From the IMG/VR virus record IMGVR_UViG_3300044841_000064, positions 1 to 22,881 of that record: a stretch of DNA of 22,881 nt; one strand, 5' to 3'. Both the position numbers and the translations under genes were made by a program. The stretch comes from a virus. Below, in pieces: positions 6,097-22,392 of the stretch (positions within the stretch are counted from its first letter, which is position 1; the number at the start of each line of letters is the position of its first letter). The notes below the pieces were generated by a model. It saw nothing but the letters and a program-made list of their open reading frames with translations. It was not told the origin of the DNA and ran no database searches.

Positions 6097-7508
6097 GACC
6101 CTGGGGAGGTCGTCCCCTGAAAGAACCCCGAGTTGGACGTGTCAACTGAGGATGGCGCCGTCGTCGCCGCGGGAGTCGTGGCTGCTGCTGCCGTTGGATC
6201 ACCGAACACCAGTGTGGAGCTGGCCTGTTGGTTCGACGCGATGCTGTTCAGGGCCGCCAGCCCGTCCTGCAGCTGCTTCACTCCGTTGTTCAGCGCGGTG
6301 GTCTGCTGCGACGTCGACAAATTCGGGTTCGTCATGATCGCGGACAGGTTGGTCAGCGCCTGATTGTACAGCTGCGATGCGCTGGCCGAGGTTTGCAGCA
6401 GCGTCTTGTTGTCGTTGGTCATCTGCTGGATTTGCGTGTTGATGGCCCCGTTCGCCTGGATATTGGCCAGCGAACTCGCGTTCTGCAGGTTTTGCACGGC
6501 GAGCGCGTTGGCGTTGTTCATTGACGCGATGACCTGCGCCGATTGGGTCTGCTGCTGCGCTACGGTCAGGCTGGTGTTGGCATTGATGTTGGCGATGACC
6601 TGGGCGCTGGTGTTGTTGACCGCCGCGAGTGCCGCGGTTGCCTGGGCAGCGCGGTCCTGGACCGTCAGTTGGGTATTGGCGCTCAATTGCCCGAGGTAGG
6701 TTTGCAGACCGGTCTGCTGCGTCTGCACCGCCAGCGTGGTCGCATCCTGCTTGTCCTGATTGGACAGGCTGGTGTTGGCCTGGATGTTGGCGATGATCTG
6801 TGAAGTCGCTGACGCCTTGTCCTGGACCGAAAGCGACGTGTTGGCTTGAATGTTCGCGATGGCCTGCGCCGAAGCGGTGTTCACCGAGGCAAGGTCTTTC
6901 GACCCGGCGATGGCCTGCGCGGCCTGTTGAGCGGTGTTGCCCGCGCCGGCGTTGAACTGGCTGGTCTGGGTAGCGAGCTGGGCGTTCTGCAAGCCCGCAG
7001 TGTTGGTGGCTGCCGCCTGCGCCGCGAGCGCGGTATTCTGCGCCGTCGTGGTGTTGGTGGCCGCCTGGTTGTAGGTCGCGGCGTCCGCCGTCGCGATCGG
7101 GGTTGCCGCCGAATACAGCGCGGACTGATCGGCGGTAACGCCCTGGCTCGAATTGATCAGCCCCCGCTGGTTCATCAGATTCCGCGCATTGGCCTCGGCC
7201 TGCTGCATAAGCGGCGAGCCGGACGCGATGATGTTGGAGATCTGGCCGGAGACGGTCTGGTCCGGCGAGACGGTGAAAGCGTTTGGCGTGGAGCCTGTAG
7301 CCGTAGCATTCGACGCGGTCGCCGTGGCGGGCGTGTAGGGCGTGACCGTCGCACCGCCGACCTGTTGCGGGGTCGCGGTGGCGGGGGCTGTGTTGATCAG
7401 GCCAGTCGGGGCGGGTGCGGCCGTCGGATCAGCGCCAGGAGCCCCGGGCGGTGGGATCGGCGGTGGGATGGTCGGCGTGTTGACGCCCGGGGTCTGGCTA
7501 CCGGACAT
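6093..7508 (-). CDS. Long helical-repeat virion protein (ejection- or fibre-type)
   Basis: 471 residues. The ATG at 7508 is preceded by AGGCGG about 4 bases upstream. Residues 1-75 are Pro/Ala/Thr-rich and probably disordered. Residues about 85-150 hold a recognisable segment, with QRGLINSSQGVTADQSALYSAATPIA, of a type I recall from many phage structural proteins. Residues 213-352 contain imperfect repeats of the form IANIQANTSLSVQDKASAT, predicted to form a long helical rod. The C-terminus is Ala/Thr/Ser-rich. Charged residues are scarce and Gln/Asn/Ala dominate, as in internal virion proteins that are unfolded and ejected. No enzymatic motif was found, so the exact place in the particle is not decided. 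Confidence 0.75.
   Translation of the reverse strand: MSGSQTPGVNTPTIPPPIPPPGAPGADPTAAPAPTGLINTAPATATPQQVGGATVTPYTPATATASNATATGSTPNAFTVSPDQTVSGQISNIIASGSPLMQQAEANARNLMNQRGLINSSQGVTADQSALYSAATPIATADAATYNQAATNTTTAQNTALAAQAAATNTAGLQNAQLATQTSQFNAGAGNTAQQAAQAIAGSKDLASVNTASAQAIANIQANTSLSVQDKASATSQIIANIQANTSLSNQDKQDATTLAVQTQQTGLQTYLGQLSANTQLTVQDRAAQATAALAAVNNTSAQVIANINANTSLTVAQQQTQSAQVIASMNNANALAVQNLQNASSLANIQANGAINTQIQQMTNDNKTLLQTSASASQLYNQALTNLSAIMTNPNLSTSQQTTALNNGVKQLQDGLAALNSIASNQQASSTLVFGDPTAAAATTPAATTAPSSVDTSNSGFFQGTTSPGS
6453..6872 (-). repeat. Protein-level helical repeats (ANIQANTSL units)
   Basis: At least four imperfect units of the type IANIQANTSL..QDK occur in residues about 213-352 of the overlapping virion protein. 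The two best-preserved units are 22 residues apart. The phrase NANTSL or SANTQL marks each unit. Confidence 0.7.
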
Positions 7509-8360: not shown

Positions 8361-10606
8361 ACGCGCATCCCGCGCCGCATCGAAAAGTGATGCTGGATCG
8401 AATTCACAGTATATGCCCCGATGTAATTTGTGCCAGATGAAATCGTAACGCGGATGTTCTCGGCGGTTCCGGTCTCGTCGATGTCAGTCGGCAGCAGACC
8501 CGAGCCGTCCCAGGTGAATGCATCCCAGACGAACGAATCCCAGTGCTGCACGGCGCCGAGATTGAACGTTACGGATGTCGCTGGTAGTTGCGCAATCTGA
8601 TCGGAGTTGTAACCAAGCTGATAGCCGTACTGGATCTGCGCATAGCTAGCGCCCTGCACCTCAATCGAGGCCGCCCGGAAGCGCTTTAGAATGCGCGGCG
8701 ACTTTACCGCATCCCAGGCGGTCACGAAGTAGGCGTAAATCGCCGCGCCGTCGAACGATGTGCCGATATCCAACTGGAAGACATAGCCTGACTTTGACCC
8801 GGCATAGGTCACCTCGGTATCGTTGACCAGTTTGGTGGTATCGACGCTTGTCAGGATATCGGGAAACAGCACCGGCGCAGCGCCGAGATATTGCTGATTG
8901 AGGACCGTGCAATACAGCGCATAGCCATCGCCGAAGAATAGGCGATATTGGCTTTTCGACCGGCAGACCGACGATGCAACCAGATTGCCGCGCTCGCGGG
9001 CGATGAACGGCAGGATATTCTTCGTCAATGTCGAGGGTAGAAAATTCCCCCAATTCAGTGTCGTTTTCAACGTTACGACGCCAAGATCGTCCAAAAAGAA
9101 AGTGTCGAATAAATTCTGAACGGAGTAAGGAACCGCGCCGATGCTGCTGGAGAAGGTCACGAAATTAAATGTGGTCGGGTCGGTGCCGTATAGAAATGCC
9201 GCGTTGGAGCGGAGGTAAACGCCCAGCGTTGCCGTGGTTTGACTTCCGGGCAAGGTGATCATGCCGGTGATCGTATCGCCGGTCGCGATCTCGCCGCCCC
9301 CGTCTAAAGCCGACCATTTGAACGGGTTGCCGGCGGCGCAATAAATCAGCGAGGCGGCCTGCGCGATGAACAGGAAATTCTTATGGAAGCGAATATGCGA
9401 TGGCGCGTCCGGAGACAGCCCGGTCGAGATGGGCGCCAACGTATCGCCATCGAACTCGAAACAGGGATTGACCCCGTCGCAGCCGTAAATCCGCCGGGTG
9501 ATCAATTGGCCGGAGAAATTGCACTTCTCGAACTCGAACCGCCCGCCGGGCGCCATTGTGATCGGGGCCTGCACACCGGAAAGCGTCAGCGTCGCCCCGC
9601 TTGTCGTGGTAGCGGCCCCGGCGGTGAAACTACCGCCAACCGGATTGGTAACGACAAACTGCCCGATGGCGGACCCCGCCCAGGCGCCTGACTGCCACAT
9701 CACCCGCTTGATCGTTGCCGTTTTGCCGCCCTGGGTCAGGGTGTCGCCGTCGAGCGGCACCGCGGCGCCCCCGGCGGTAAACGAGATGAGGTTGTAGTAC
9801 GGCACCAGTATCCACCCGGCGGCGGTGGCCCGGTAGAGCAATGCCGCTGTCCCGCCAAGGTTGGCGCGTAACGCGTAGAGCTGATCAACGCCGAGAAACG
9901 CCATGGACACAACGCCGAGGACCGGACCAGCTCCCGGAACCTGCTGGATCAGCGCGCGGTAACCATCCGCCGCCGCTGCGGTGTAGACCGCCTTGGTCTG
10001 CGCATCGATCGAGACCGTCAAAGCAGCGGCGTTGCCGATCCCGATCGGCCCCGGCAGCGTCAACGGGCTGACCTGATCGAACACGCCGGAGACCAGGGTC
10101 AGCACCAGATAGGCCACCGGCGTGATGACCACGGCGACGATCGTCCCCTGCGCGCCGGTGTTGGGCTGGGTGACCACCTGCCCAACGGTGGGGGTGTTCG
10201 ACTGAGCCAAGATCGTGAAGTCGCTGGTGAAATCGGAGGTGAAGTCGGGCGGAACGAGGAAGCCGACCGAGACAGGCATGTAGGCCGCAATGAGGAAGTC
10301 GCCGCCGAAATCAGCGCCGAAATCTGGCAGGTTGGCGACCGACGCAACCTGGACGATGGTATAGGCCGCGGCACTCGGCGATGGGCGCCCGTCAACCCGC
10401 TCATAGCCATCGATCCTGGAATAGCCGCCGAAGGGGGCGACCTCGAAGTTCAGCGCGTCGGACAGCGCCCCCGGCTGCAAGCGTAGCGATGGCGTGGTTT
10501 GGTCGAGGCCGCCGGGAAACGCCTGGCCCTGCGCGTTCGTGCCGGACCCCAGCTGGGTCTGGCTGTATTTGACGGCCGGCCAGGCGTTTTTCGGGATGGC
10601 GTTCAT
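8357..10606 (-). CDS. Large tail protein (candidate tail hub/nozzle component)
   Basis: 749 residues, beginning with ATG at 10606 in an ATGA overlap. It is the largest protein in the window and is mostly beta-strand in character. The N-terminal segment QTTPSLRLQPGALSDALNFE (about 37-55) is a signature I associate with large tail proteins of short-tailed phages. Short DFT/DFG repeats occur at about 95-131 (DFGADFGGDF, then DFTSDFTSDFT). The middle has repeated WKSALDGG/GYALYCTVLNQ-type blade-like strands. The C-terminus has paired WDSFVWDAFTWDG and ends SMRRGMRV. A nozzle or propeller-like hub role fits size, position after the fibre genes and absence of a long tail, but homology was not tested. 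Confidence 0.65.
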   Translation of the reverse strand: MNAIPKNAWPAVKYSQTQLGSGTNAQGQAFPGGLDQTTPSLRLQPGALSDALNFEVAPFGGYSRIDGYERVDGRPSPSAAAYTIVQVASVANLPDFGADFGGDFLIAAYMPVSVGFLVPPDFTSDFTSDFTILAQSNTPTVGQVVTQPNTGAQGTIVAVVITPVAYLVLTLVSGVFDQVSPLTLPGPIGIGNAAALTVSIDAQTKAVYTAAAADGYRALIQQVPGAGPVLGVVSMAFLGVDQLYALRANLGGTAALLYRATAAGWILVPYYNLISFTAGGAAVPLDGDTLTQGGKTATIKRVMWQSGAWAGSAIGQFVVTNPVGGSFTAGAATTTSGATLTLSGVQAPITMAPGGRFEFEKCNFSGQLITRRIYGCDGVNPCFEFDGDTLAPISTGLSPDAPSHIRFHKNFLFIAQAASLIYCAAGNPFKWSALDGGGEIATGDTITGMITLPGSQTTATLGVYLRSNAAFLYGTDPTTFNFVTFSSSIGAVPYSVQNLFDTFFLDDLGVVTLKTTLNWGNFLPSTLTKNILPFIARERGNLVASSVCRSKSQYRLFFGDGYALYCTVLNQQYLGAAPVLFPDILTSVDTTKLVNDTEVTYAGSKSGYVFQLDIGTSFDGAAIYAYFVTAWDAVKSPRILKRFRAASIEVQGASYAQIQYGYQLGYNSDQIAQLPATSVTFNLGAVQHWDSFVWDAFTWDGSGLLPTDIDETGTAENIRVTISSGTNYIGAYTVNSIQHHFSMRRGMRV

Positions 10607-19109: not shown

Positions 19110-20180
19110 CTAAACGAGGACCTTGGAACCAACGAAACCAACAGCCATCCAGCCGGCATTTTCGATCATTACTGCCTTCCACCAAGCAGTACCCGCATAG
19201 CCACGCTGGCCGAGCGGATCGCTCTTGGACTTCTCACCGGGCGGCAGGAATGTCGGGCTCAACGAGTCCTTGCCGCGCAGCGCGATCTGGCCCCAGGCGT
19301 CTTGGGCGGTCACGATGAACGGATACACGTCGATCGAGGTGCCGGTGGTCGAATACAGCCCGGTTGCGCCAATTGCCGCTCCGCCGTCCTGGATCGAGGG
19401 AAGATCCGGCGAGGTAATGAACCTGAACCGCTCGCATTTGCCGATTTCGTTCGCGAGCGGCGTCCCGGATGCATAGGCCTCGGCCGGCACGAAGTTGGGC
19501 AGGTCGCGGATGTCGGGTTCAAGATCGGTGTGGCAATACACCGTGTAGCCCTCGGCGACGGGATCGGTCGCGAAGTTCGGGCTCGCCTTCAAGACCTTGT
19601 TCACCGGCTTGCCGTGGTTCGCTTGCAGGTTCTTGGAGATCTTGCGGATCATTCCGAGCGTCATCCCGCCATTGACGGTGGCAATCGATGTTCCGGCACC
19701 GCCGTAATAGGCGTTCGTGCAACCCCTGAGCGCACCCCAGATGATCATTTCGTTGACGAAGGTCACCCGCTCGCCGATCTGCTCAATCATGGCTTTGGGA
19801 ATATCATCTTCGTACAAGTCAAAGGTTTTGTCAGTGAAACCATATAAACAGCCGAACTGTTGAACGACAACCGTAATATCCATCGGAACGATACTGTCGG
19901 GAGCAGGGGTTACTCCTTCCTGGATCTGATGCGCCTGCGTGACGATATTGCCTCTGTCGCCCGTGCCGTTCTGAAAGAACTGGTTCTGGCTCGACGCGGT
20001 GCTTGCAGTGGCACCATAGGGCAGCCATCTCCTAGCTACATAAGTGTCCGAATTATTTCTGGGCATGGGTATCTGCCGTCCGGTCTTACCCAATACTTCC
20101 ATCGGCACCGCGTGTGCGAGTATTTCACCCTTAAACTTATTTATCCTGCCCGGTGTGAGGTTAAACGACTGAACAGACAT
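19110..20180 (-). CDS. Major capsid protein, N4-gp56 type
   Basis: 356 residues from the ATG at 20180, which follows AAAGGA by nine bases. An in-frame TTG at 20228 would add 16 residues but has no such site. The recognisable features of the N4-gp56 major capsid family are the early GKTGRQIPMPRNNSDTYVARRWLPYG, then FTDKTFDLYEDDIP and a central helix NEMIIWGALRGCTNAYYGG. Further on come YCHTDLEPDIRDLPNFVPAEAY and ERFRFITSPDLPSIQDGGA, and the C-terminal GYAGTAWWKAVMIENAGW. The protein builds the icosahedral head (HK97-like fold in the family). Its gene is separated from the scaffold gene by the inserted + strand cassette, unlike the usual adjacent order. Confidence 0.9.
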   Translation of the reverse strand: MSVQSFNLTPGRINKFKGEILAHAVPMEVLGKTGRQIPMPRNNSDTYVARRWLPYGATASTASSQNQFFQNGTGDRGNIVTQAHQIQEGVTPAPDSIVPMDITVVVQQFGCLYGFTDKTFDLYEDDIPKAMIEQIGERVTFVNEMIIWGALRGCTNAYYGGAGTSIATVNGGMTLGMIRKISKNLQANHGKPVNKVLKASPNFATDPVAEGYTVYCHTDLEPDIRDLPNFVPAEAYASGTPLANEIGKCERFRFITSPDLPSIQDGGAAIGATGLYSTTGTSIDVYPFIVTAQDAWGQIALRGKDSLSPTFLPPGEKSKSDPLGQRGYAGTAWWKAVMIENAGWMAVGFVGSKVLV

Positions 20181-20289
20181 AGTATAGTATCCTTTGGGTG
20201 TTGGTGGAAGTTGAGGTTTGTTGTCCAAGAAACCGTCGTCACAAAGGCGACAGTCGCAGGCCCCACCGCACCCAAGCGCGTCAAGGTCG

Positions 20290-20318
20290 TTGCCATTTTA
20301 AGCCGATTAGTGTATAGA
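20290..20318 (+). promoter_or_regulatory. Candidate sigma-70-type promoter of the endonuclease cassette
   Basis: TTGCCA (20290-20295, five of six matches to the -35 box) and TATAGA (20313-20318, four of six matches to the -10 box) are exactly 17 bases apart on the + strand. Transcription is predicted to begin at about 20325, giving a 5' leader of about 57 bases that begins at the hairpin. Confidence 0.55.
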
Positions 20319-20323
20319 TCGGA

Positions 20324-20353
20324 TCAACGTCAGTGTTTCCGCACTGGCGTTGA
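20324..20353 (+). other. 12-base-pair inverted repeat (leader hairpin)
   Basis: Arms TCAACGTCAGTG (20324-20335) and CACTGGCGTTGA (20342-20353) pair over 12 positions around a six-base spacer TTTCCG. The single imperfect pair is T-G, a tolerated G-U in the + strand RNA but a C-A mismatch in the minus-strand RNA. There is no T-run on either side, so it is not a standard terminator. It lies at the predicted 5' end of the endonuclease message. Confidence 0.8.
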
Positions 20354-20381
20354 CCCTAACCACAACGAGAGCGACCTCGAT

Positions 20382-21284
20382 ATGGCTGAAATCAGCATAC
20401 CATTACCTAGCCCCTCCGGGCATTGGCATTTCGTCTACGTGACCACGGACCCAGAAACGGGAGAGTGGTATGGCGGGAAGCGATCCACCAAGAACCAACC
20501 ATTGTCCGATCGATACCTTGGATCAGGGAACTGGGTTAGGCAGCACCCAGCGCGAGAGCGGCTAAAACGTGAGGTTGTCGCGTTCTACCCGAGTTCGGCC
20601 GAGGTATTTGCTGCCGAGGCGGAAATGATCACCTGGGCCGTTGTGATGGACGACCCGCTTTGCATGAACCTGTGGGCGGGCGGGCAGGGTAGCACATCCG
20701 AGGCCGCGCTTCATCGCAGTGCAGGCACGGAATGGCGCGCGAACAATCTCGCGGCCGTCCGTCTGAGGTCCGCTAGTCCCGAGTGGCGCGCGAACCAGAC
20801 CGTAGGCGCTGCCAAGCGATTGGCCGATCCGGCGTGGCATGAGTCAAACAAAGCCGCCGCATGTATCAGATCTTCCGATCCGAAGTGGATTGAGAACCAG
20901 GGTGCGGCCATGCAAACAGTCCACGCTGACCCGGAATACCGAAAGAGCTACCTTGCAGGCATAGCCAAGCGATCGCCCGATCCGGCGTGGCCTGCCGCGC
21001 ACGCGGCGGCTATGGCCAAACGATCCAGCAACGCAGAGTGGAAGAAATACCAAGCCGCCTCAGTGCGCCGTGTGACAGAGACCCCCGAATGGAAGGAAGC
21101 CCAGCTTGCTGGCTCTCGGAAACGCGCCATTGTTTTTGTCGATCTGAACGGGAAGCGGATGTCGGTTGCCGATGCCTGCCGCGAGACCGGCATGTCCTAC
21201 AAGTTGGTGCTCAACCGCAGAAAGAACGGATGGCCCGAGAGCGAGTGGCTCACCCCGTTACGCAAACAAGGAACCGCCCGATGA
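20382..21284 (+). CDS. GIY-YIG homing endonuclease with tandem 17-residue repeats
   Basis: 300 residues on the + strand, within the minus-strand virion block. The ATG at 20382 is chosen because the nuclease domain begins right after it and the 174 open codons upstream would read through the capsid start. Residues 15-83 form a GIY-YIG domain: FVYV (17-20) for GIY, EWYGGKRS (28-35) for YIG with Arg34, DRYLGSG (43-49), and EAEMI with Glu79/Glu81 as the probable metal-binding residue. Residues 116-249 are eight 17-residue units (PEWRANQTVGAAKRLAD type). Residues 250-300 (VDLNGKRMSVADACRETGMSYK) resemble a NUMOD-like DNA-binding helix-turn-helix. The enzyme likely makes a site-specific cut in cassette-free relatives. 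YIG is altered to YGG. Confidence 0.85.
   Translation: MAEISIPLPSPSGHWHFVYVTTDPETGEWYGGKRSTKNQPLSDRYLGSGNWVRQHPARERLKREVVAFYPSSAEVFAAEAEMITWAVVMDDPLCMNLWAGGQGSTSEAALHRSAGTEWRANNLAAVRLRSASPEWRANQTVGAAKRLADPAWHESNKAAACIRSSDPKWIENQGAAMQTVHADPEYRKSYLAGIAKRSPDPAWPAAHAAAMAKRSSNAEWKKYQAASVRRVTETPEWKEAQLAGSRKRAIVFVDLNGKRMSVADACRETGMSYKLVLNRRKNGWPESEWLTPLRKQGTAR
20727..21128 (+). repeat. Eight tandem 51-base (17-residue) repeat units
   Basis: Residues 116-249 of the homing endonuclease are divided into units starting TEW, PEW, PAW, PKW, PEY, PAW, AEW and PEW at strict 17-residue spacing; the last is 15 residues long. Each has a Trp/Tyr at position 3, Ala-rich positions 8-11 and a basic residue near position 13. 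They probably extend the protein along DNA. Confidence 0.85.
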
Positions 21285-21520
21285 TCGAAATCACAACGCA
21301 GGAACAAGCCGAATTCGATCTCCAGAACGAGCTAGCCGATCAGCACCTCACTGCTGTTTTAGAGGATACTCCCGACGACGTGGACAGCATCGGCGTGCTC
21401 TACAGCCTTTGGGTGAACATCACCCATGTGCTGGCAGATGCCGGGTGGACCGGAGAGGAGTTAGCTCGCGACGTCCAACATCACGTAGCGAGCGCCACAA
21501 CTACGGGGCCGATGCAGTAG
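21281..21520 (+). CDS. Small acidic protein coupled to the homing endonuclease
   Basis: 79 residues. The ATG at 21281 overlaps the endonuclease stop (ATGA), and AAGGA lies eight bases upstream, so the start is well supported. The protein has about 15 Asp/Glu against one Arg and no Lys, a strongly negative charge. It has two helical parts, about 3-28 and about 35-66 (VLYSLWVNITHVLADAGWTGEELARDV). It ends five bases before the stop of the converging scaffold gene. The charge could mean binding to the basic endonuclease or DNA mimicry, but this is speculation. It could equally be an unrelated small accessory protein. No family is recognised. Confidence 0.75.
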   Translation: MIEITTQEQAEFDLQNELADQHLTAVLEDTPDDVDSIGVLYSLWVNITHVLADAGWTGEELARDVQHHVASATTTGPMQ

Positions 21521-21525
21521 CTTCG

Positions 21526-22392
21526 TCATCTTGAGCGAAAGCCGGCCTCGAATTCTTCGTCGTCGGTTTTGCCGGCGGCAGCGCCTGCGTTGTCACCTCG
21601 CGGTTGGACTGCTCCCCGAATCCGCTCGGCTCGCGCGGCATCGCGTGGCGTCCCGTTCACCTTCGCCGGTGCAGCTTTGGTTTCGTTTTGGAACAGCCGG
21701 ATGGCCCGGCCGATTACCTGGGCCGATTCCGAGCCGTTGATCCGATTCTGATAGGCGACGTCCTTGCCGCCCAGCCATTTCCGGAACGGGTTATTGGGGT
21801 CGGGCGCCTCGCGCGTCACATCGACCGCGCCCACGATCTCCCGCCAGTCCGGCCATTCATCGGCCAATGCTTTGACCTCGCGCTTGGCGTGAAAGGCCGC
21901 GAGCCGCTCCTCCATCTTGCTGTCATCGGCGTCATTGGCGCCGGGTCCGGGTAAGCCCGAAAGCGCGGCCTCGAGCGCCGCGCGGGTCTGTTGGGCGAGT
22001 TCCGGGAAGTCGCGTTCCATCGCGGCGAACGCTTCTTTCGGGATCTCGATCTTGCGGGCGGTCGCAGCGGCAGCGGCGGGTTGCCCGGCAGCTTTCTGCT
22101 CGTTCAGCAGCTTCTGGAGATTTCCGATGGTGCCGAACGCGCGGCTGAACTGCTGGTCATAGCTTGCCGTCCGGGCGGCGGCGGCCATGACATCAGCCCA
22201 GTCTTTTTCGCTGATCTGGACGAACTTTTCCGGCGTCGCCTCTGCCCGTAGGGTTTCCGCGGGCGCGGGCTTGTCCGGTTTGCCGGTTGGCTTTTCTGCT
22301 GGTTTGCCTTCGGCGCCCGTGAAGCCGCCAGAGAAGTCGGCATTTTCCTGCGCGTCGTCGACCGCAACGTCGTCGGGTTTTTCGTCAGCCAT
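21526..22392 (-). CDS. Scaffold-like (capsid assembly) protein
   Basis: 288 residues, ATG at 22392 with GGAG about ten bases upstream. Typical of capsid scaffolds, it is highly charged, Ala/Lys/Glu/Pro-rich and mostly helical. It has an acidic N-terminal stretch (MADEKPDDVAVDDAQEN), a Pro/Lys-rich linker, a central helix with SYDQQFSRAFGTIGNLQKLLNEQ (about 78-100), and a second helical part with ALADEWPDWREIVGAVD. The tail ends KTDDEEFEAGFRSR. Its place just upstream of the major capsid gene in the reading direction supports the assignment. Catalytic residues of a protease are not visible. Confidence 0.7.
   Translation of the reverse strand: MADEKPDDVAVDDAQENADFSGGFTGAEGKPAEKPTGKPDKPAPAETLRAEATPEKFVQISEKDWADVMAAAARTASYDQQFSRAFGTIGNLQKLLNEQKAAGQPAAAAATARKIEIPKEAFAAMERDFPELAQQTRAALEAALSGLPGPGANDADDSKMEERLAAFHAKREVKALADEWPDWREIVGAVDVTREAPDPNNPFRKWLGGKDVAYQNRINGSESAQVIGRAIRLFQNETKAAPAKVNGTPRDAARAERIRGAVQPRGDNAGAAAGKTDDEEFEAGFRSR

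Follow-up and report, generated by a model that had tools for sequence, protein, structure and literature searches.

Organization of the locus

The window, by which we mean the whole stretch of DNA that was analyzed, comes from a virus and comprises a contig of 22,881 bases. Its features are compiled in Table 1. We found a nuclease gene and a short acidic ORF on the plus strand, antisense to the late operon and located between a scaffold-like gene and the major capsid protein (MCP) gene. Both lie exactly at the positions given in the earlier note, which had laid no emphasis on their orientation against the late operon. The nuclease gene is preceded by a promoter and by a leader with two hairpins. 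For the MCP gene, the ATG at 20180 was taken as the likely start because relatives start at the equivalent ATG. The scaffold-like gene adjoins the MCP gene in about 75 relatives. Additionally, two related loci (L039, 3608-3895; L040, 966-1253) have, upstream of the full scaffold-like gene, a further scaffold-like match that is partial (43% to residues 139-237).

Table 1 Features of the scaffold-MCP junction in the window. Positions refer to the whole stretch.
Feature	Position	Strand	Basis
Major capsid protein (MCP) gene	19110-20228, likely start ATG at 20180	-	phrog_1357, 3.7e-54
Conserved MCP 5' element (CAACGACC ... GGCCTACGACCGGCGCCCTGTGACGGCGGTTTC ... SD)	20181-20292	-	alignment of 22 loci
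Cassette promoter, also MCP-side cassette end	20290-20318	+	conserved geometry, left-end coincidence
Leader hairpin I	20321-20356	+	MFE -22 kcal/mol, covariation, CM R1
Conserved CCCTAACCA linker, first three bases paired in hairpin I	20354-20362	+	conservation
Leader hairpin II (CGAG AGCGAC CTCG), ends 2 nt before start codon	20366-20379	+	arm swapping
Seg-like GIY-YIG nuclease, 300 aa	20382-21284	+	phrog_314, invariant residues, dN/dS
Eight tandem 17-residue repeats, residues 115-250	20724-21131	+	repeat register, predicted helices, pI 10.2
C-terminal beta-hairpin and helices, like HNH homing-endonuclease tails	21132-21281	+	phrog_3377
Acidic ORF, 79 aa	21281-21520	+	codon-position GC; lineage-specific
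Scaffold-like gene	21526-22392	-	position only; no family match

The inserted DNA sits exactly between the stop codon of the scaffold-like gene and a conserved element at the 5' side of the MCP gene. This element was delineated by aligning 22 loci, of which six are occupied and the rest lack the nuclease. It begins with CAACGACC and is intact in the occupied alleles aligned. The element had no match in Rfam, and its alignment contained no two-sided covariation. In further relatives, the place of the element is taken by another hairpin or by nothing more than a gap of 8-28 nt.

A nuclease of known type

The nuclease ORF, whose start codon lies in the context ATGGCT, encodes a protein with a divergent GIY-YIG head. 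The head matches phrog_314, a homing endonuclease family, with an E-value of 1.5e-12, and the same match is present in all 13 members of the nuclease family. Compared with phage Seg-like proteins, it gave tblastn matches down to 8e-10, and the match to the Pfam model SegE_GIY-YIG was sub-threshold. Residues of catalytic type (Y19, Y30, G31, E79, and N96) are unchanged in 13/13 relatives, and the N-terminal domain is under purifying selection, with a dN/dS of 0.17 relative to the nuclease of L002 and of 0.17-0.25 in comparisons of closest alleles. The predicted fold has I-TevI and UvrC catalytic domains among its best Foldseek matches, with a TM-score to the target of ~0.5 and E > 0.5. A PDB sequence search with the nuclease profile matched solely a ribosomal protein, on the repeats, which we judged spurious, and the bacterial genomes searched contained no relatives of the nuclease.

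The head is followed by exactly eight repeats of 17 residues each, starting at residue 115. Both this number and the GIY-YIG-like head had been read from the letters alone in the earlier note, and both readings hold. The repeats are of a DPEW type and basic (pI 10.2, with 9.70 for the whole protein), and AlphaFold2 predicts eight single helices for the region. Fold prediction, charge, and position suggest that the array is probably a DNA-reading tail. Pfam detected no NUMOD3 (PF07460) in the repeats of the window nuclease, unlike in other leader-bearing GIY-YIG nucleases (see below). Within the family, the number of repeats ranges from about 5 to 11, and the tail of the L086 nuclease switches midway to a NUMOD3-like pattern as judged by eye, although Pfam listed no NUMOD3 there. 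The C-terminal piece matches phrog_3377, an HNH endonuclease family (3e-7, residues 237-295), and is found in two of the 13 family members, the window and L002. In itself, the nuclease is an ordinary new representative of the free-standing homing endonucleases, with its gene lying between other genes and outside any intron or intein.

The acidic ORF is probably a passenger

The ORF downstream of the nuclease gene starts within an ATGA overlap with the nuclease ORF end and encodes a strongly acidic protein (pI 4.05; 15 D/E against 1 K/R), as the earlier note had described. Its codon-position GC (0.66/0.36/0.68) is as expected of coding sequence, suggesting that it is probably a real gene. A single-sequence fold prediction returned a three-helix model of middling confidence that had no significant structural match.

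The earlier note had included the acidic protein in the unit and speculated that it controls the nuclease. Such a functional pair, with the acidic partner binding and holding back the basic nuclease as an inhibitor, antitoxin, or DNA mimic, is suggested by the opposite charges (pI 4.05 versus 9.70), by the translational coupling that the ATGA overlap implies, and by the coding-like GC pattern of the ORF. However, when we followed the proposed check on whether the two genes co-occur, the acidic ORF was found only in the window. No other cassette with a visible 3' end is followed by this ORF, not even that of L002, in which a 72%-identical nuclease occupies the same site; relatives carry the nuclease alone. 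Searches of IMG/VR, of plasmids and annotated phages, and of 41 records of related phages found no relative of the acidic protein. The sole match in a bacterial genome (L100) lies inside a polysaccharide-deacetylase-like ORF and was attributed to chance, as was a match in L128 (E 0.005 over 38 residues). These data make a functional pair highly unlikely. Since the ORF is missing from the other cassettes and no credible relative was found, we treat it as a passenger that was probably acquired in the lineage of the window and lies outside the conserved cassette.

Cassette-free alleles and further insertion sites

A search with the MCP protein yielded 80 related loci in addition to the window, of which 77 could be classified at the scaffold-MCP junction. 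About 70 of these junctions, with both flanks visible, are cassette-free, and 0-284 nt separate the scaffold gene from the capsid gene. The nuclease is present at this junction in seven contigs, one of them the window, and is always antisense. Relatives lacking the insert, which the earlier note had proposed to look for, are therefore not only found but form the majority, and its claim of an insertion between usually adjacent genes is borne out. In L002, the stop codon of the nuclease gene directly abuts the stop codon of the scaffold-like gene. In L008, a gap of 200 nt still contains, as judged by eye, a promoter and the beginning of hairpin I but lacks a nuclease, and looks like a decayed cassette. 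In another relative (L018 and L088, one contig), the nuclease gene is interrupted by an IS1595-like element. This element (L088, 5753-8540) has the inverted ends ATTGCTTTTGCTCAA / TTGAGCAAAAGCAAT and contains an IS1595 transposase, a TnpB-like ORF, and an ORF of 146 aa that is itself preceded by a two-hairpin leader as in the nuclease.

A profile search identified four more cassettes with the same leader at other late-gene junctions. They adjoin a lysozyme-like gene (L084), lie at the 3' end of a portal gene (L086), precede a gene for a 208-aa protein in the virion region (L087), or lie beside the portal region (L091). Wherever the upstream sequence is visible, the left ends of the cassettes coincide at TTG(C), i.e. 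at the -35 box, across four insertion sites. In L086, portal C-terminal-tail-like sequence was seen by eye on both sides of the cassette (upstream of 4803 and downstream of 5969), as if the flank had been duplicated or carried by the insertion.

The mobile-nuclease reading holds because cassette-free alleles are in the majority and cassettes are found at other late-gene junctions. The idea of a mobile unit under acidic control is thus retained for the nuclease, which has empty alleles and other sites, and dropped for the acidic partner, which is absent elsewhere. In a tree of the N-terminal domain, alleles from the MCP site form no clade; since the tree is weakly supported, a single homing lineage at this site cannot be inferred from it. 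Likewise, the target specificity is not readable from the repeats, because repeat regions from the same site are as divergent as those from different sites, except for the pair of the window and L002.

We consider it very unlikely that the nuclease is instead ancestral at the MCP site and was inherited vertically with many losses. The same position and orientation in seven contigs and the weak support of the N-domain tree would be compatible with such a history, whereas the roughly 70 empty alleles and the presence of cassettes with the same leader and left end at other junctions argue against it. A role other than homing, in which the nuclease would be kept for excluding competing phages by cutting in the capsid region or for repressing capsid transcription through its DNA-binding tail, has a precedent: CapR, the capsid repressor of the ICP1 satellite PLE, has its evolutionary origin in the DNA-binding domain of nucleases of this kind (PMC10448857). 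Although the cassette adjoins the capsid gene and the nuclease is under purifying selection, we regard this role as improbable, because the catalytic-type residues are invariant, and the several insertion sites, the empty alleles, the remnant, and the interrupted copy fit the life cycle of a homing endonuclease.

The promoter and the two-hairpin leader

The cassette promoter consists of a -35 box TTGCCA (20290-20295), a spacer of 17 nt, and a -10 box TATAGA (20313-20318). A generic promoter scan did not report it since the last base is not T. Comparison nevertheless indicates that the promoter candidate of the earlier note is real: the geometry TTGnnA-17-TAnAAn is found in 9/9 relatives, with a mean score of 9.2 out of 12 versus 5.5 for shuffled sequences.

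All members of the nuclease family have in common the order promoter, hairpin I, CCCTRACCA, hairpin II, and ATGGCT. In this family, only 0-2 nt separate the end of the -10 box from hairpin I, and the outermost pairs of the hairpin may therefore not be transcribed from this promoter. Since the arms differ in length, MAFFT combined with RNAalifold on all 34 leaders gave no consensus structure, and the hairpins were consequently assessed in each leader individually and by exchanging arms between leaders. In hairpin I, 8 of the 14 pairs are changed on both sides, a number that none of 500 shuffles reached. A covariance model (R1) matches the window leader at 20310-20387 with 76.9 bits, a score to be read with the window having been part of the training set. 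For hairpin II, a stem of 4 bp at fixed geometry was found in 27/31 leaders compared to a mean of 15.8 with swapped 3' arms (0/2000 as high), and in 9/13 versus 2.6 when considering leaders without the commonest 3' arm. The ribosome-binding region lies in the loop or the 5' arm of hairpin II. The linker is also conserved in leaders whose detection did not depend on it as a search pattern.

The leader precedes genes of several families

The covariance model of the leader was applied first to loci from related phages and afterwards to 41 whole records, without using any nuclease protein sequence. It matched before GIY-YIG genes with NUMOD3 arrays (L003, L009, and L024) and on other contigs before three different HNH genes. 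No match to the model was obtained in long related records that lack such nucleases. On a contig of 29 kb (G005), three nuclease genes are leader-driven, one of GIY-YIG/NUMOD3 and two of HNH type; the leader of the GIY-YIG/NUMOD3 gene was recognized by eye only. In the corresponding locus L139 (G005:C1:14500-25500), the nuclease genes are located on the plus strand at 545-1562, 6466-7318, and 8763-9540, and portal- and terminase-like ORFs on the minus strand. Since the leader search alone recovered several nuclease families, the leader provides a protein-independent way to find cassettes.

A pattern scan of IMG/VR together with the leader model yielded about 20 further leaders. The pattern fixed CCCTRACCA, CCTC, and ATGGC, so that the conservation of these parts in the pattern-found set is by construction, which does not apply to the hairpins. 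The leaders found in this way precede GIY-YIG, HNH, HNH_3, and Endonuclease_7 genes, as well as an actinobacterial-type DUF2637 gene, look-alikes, and several small ORFs. Overall, about 26 of 37 leaders precede nucleases when near-identical contigs are counted once (~16/27 without the ten leaders of the seed family). Leader-like sequences were also observed before membrane-protein genes in L212 (4686-4765, minus strand), L213 (7534-7613, plus strand), L195 (22-99, plus strand), and L182 (1-60, plus strand). Among these four, Pfam confirmed DUF2637 in L212 only, and their leaders probably come from actinobacterial mobile elements. The only case seen of a leader before a structural gene is L155 (9115-9195), in which a leader-like sequence is followed by an ORF of 24 aa and then by an apparent major capsid protein gene. 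In structural terms, one and the same leader stands before non-homologous nucleases and some other mobile-element genes.

When the leader consensus was compared by BLAST with named phages and plasmids, nothing matched convincingly. The leader of L208, however, aligns over the full length to Rfam RF00043 (Plasmid_R1162) with 31.3 bits, the best score among the leaders and below the gathering cutoff of 55; the window leader did not match this family. Conversely, the phage-built model R1 finds the repA leader of the IncQ1 plasmid pWD1 at 20.6 bits, and this leader has its parts in the order of the phage leaders. RF00043, the repA leader of R1162/RSF1010, resembles the phage leaders in its stem I, CCTAACCAC linker, stem II with SD, and AATGGCTAC start, whereas the score below the cutoff and the unrelated downstream genes set them apart. 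Judging by its name in Rfam, the R1162 RNA regulates plasmid copy number. The resemblance may reflect homology or convergence.

The annotation of RF00043 as an antisense RNA also bears on how the hairpins work, as the leader might be the target of an antisense RNA. Alternatively, hairpin I could be an operator in the promoter DNA, given that the inverted repeat starts only 0-2 nt after the -10 box. Yet an operator would conserve its sequence, whereas the arms of hairpin I vary and covary, and some plasmid and actinobacterial leaders have no recognizable -10 box at hairpin I. On balance, we think it rather doubtful that the hairpins act in either of these ways and favor a restraint of translation, because hairpin II contains the ribosome-binding region and the mRNA would have hairpin I close to its 5' end.

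A proposed restrained homing cassette and its relation to known systems

We consider it likely that the unit is an intronless GIY-YIG homing endonuclease cassette that consists of the promoter, the two-hairpin leader, and one nuclease gene, is placed antisense in junctions of late structural genes, and is restrained in its translation by the leader. Transcription of the cassette would start at its own promoter and run counter to the late operon. By analogy to the GIY-YIG/Seg family, the nuclease would cleave the junction of a co-infecting relative that lacks the cassette, and repair of the break by recombination would copy the cassette in. The basic array of 17-residue helices would read the DNA and drift in number and sequence. 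The anatomy of the leader suggests that it would keep the level of a harmful enzyme low. The leader behaves like a module common to unrelated selfish nucleases.

The closest known arrangement is that of T4 segD, which is located antisense beside the major capsid gene (23/24) (PMC2988022). In common with SegD and the Seg family, the window has a GIY-YIG nuclease that is encoded between genes and has a modular, putatively DNA-binding tail. The window cassette differs in its conserved promoter and two-hairpin leader, whereas no promoter has been identified for segD, and in its DPEW-type repeats, which Pfam does not recognize as NUMOD3. Control by RNA hairpins that overlap or adjoin the ribosome-binding site is likewise known for several phage homing endonuclease genes, namely I-TevI, I-TevII, I-TevIII, segB, mobE of Aeh1, and seg43(25) (PMC2988022). 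In the passages of PMC2988022 consulted, these T-even-type hairpins are described nuclease by nuclease and without a common leader, in contrast to the single leader architecture with a conserved linker and an ATGGCT start that we found before unrelated nuclease families. The T5orf172/IPA-HNH nucleases of ICP1-like phages also have repetitive DNA-binding domains and are enriched beside capsid, terminase, and other essential genes; such clustering is known from other phages as well (PMC10448857). They belong to another GIY-YIG subfamily, and the text of PMC10448857 contains neither the word promoter nor the word antisense.

A leader common to unrelated selfish genes seems to be new. We found no paper on one leader common to unrelated nuclease families in a literature search that left subscription journals mostly uncovered and is weak evidence of novelty. 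Tentatively, and with somewhat more doubt than confidence, we suggest that the leader might be a transferable RNA module that was acquired independently of the protein family and provides one translational dosage control for at least four nuclease catalytic types, the IS1595-borne gene, DUF2637-type genes, and IncQ repA. More than the nuclease or the idea of an acidic partner, the shared leader is the part worth following. It offers a testable handle on how potentially harmful selfish nucleases stay tolerable and raises the question whether unrelated mobile genes use one RNA device.
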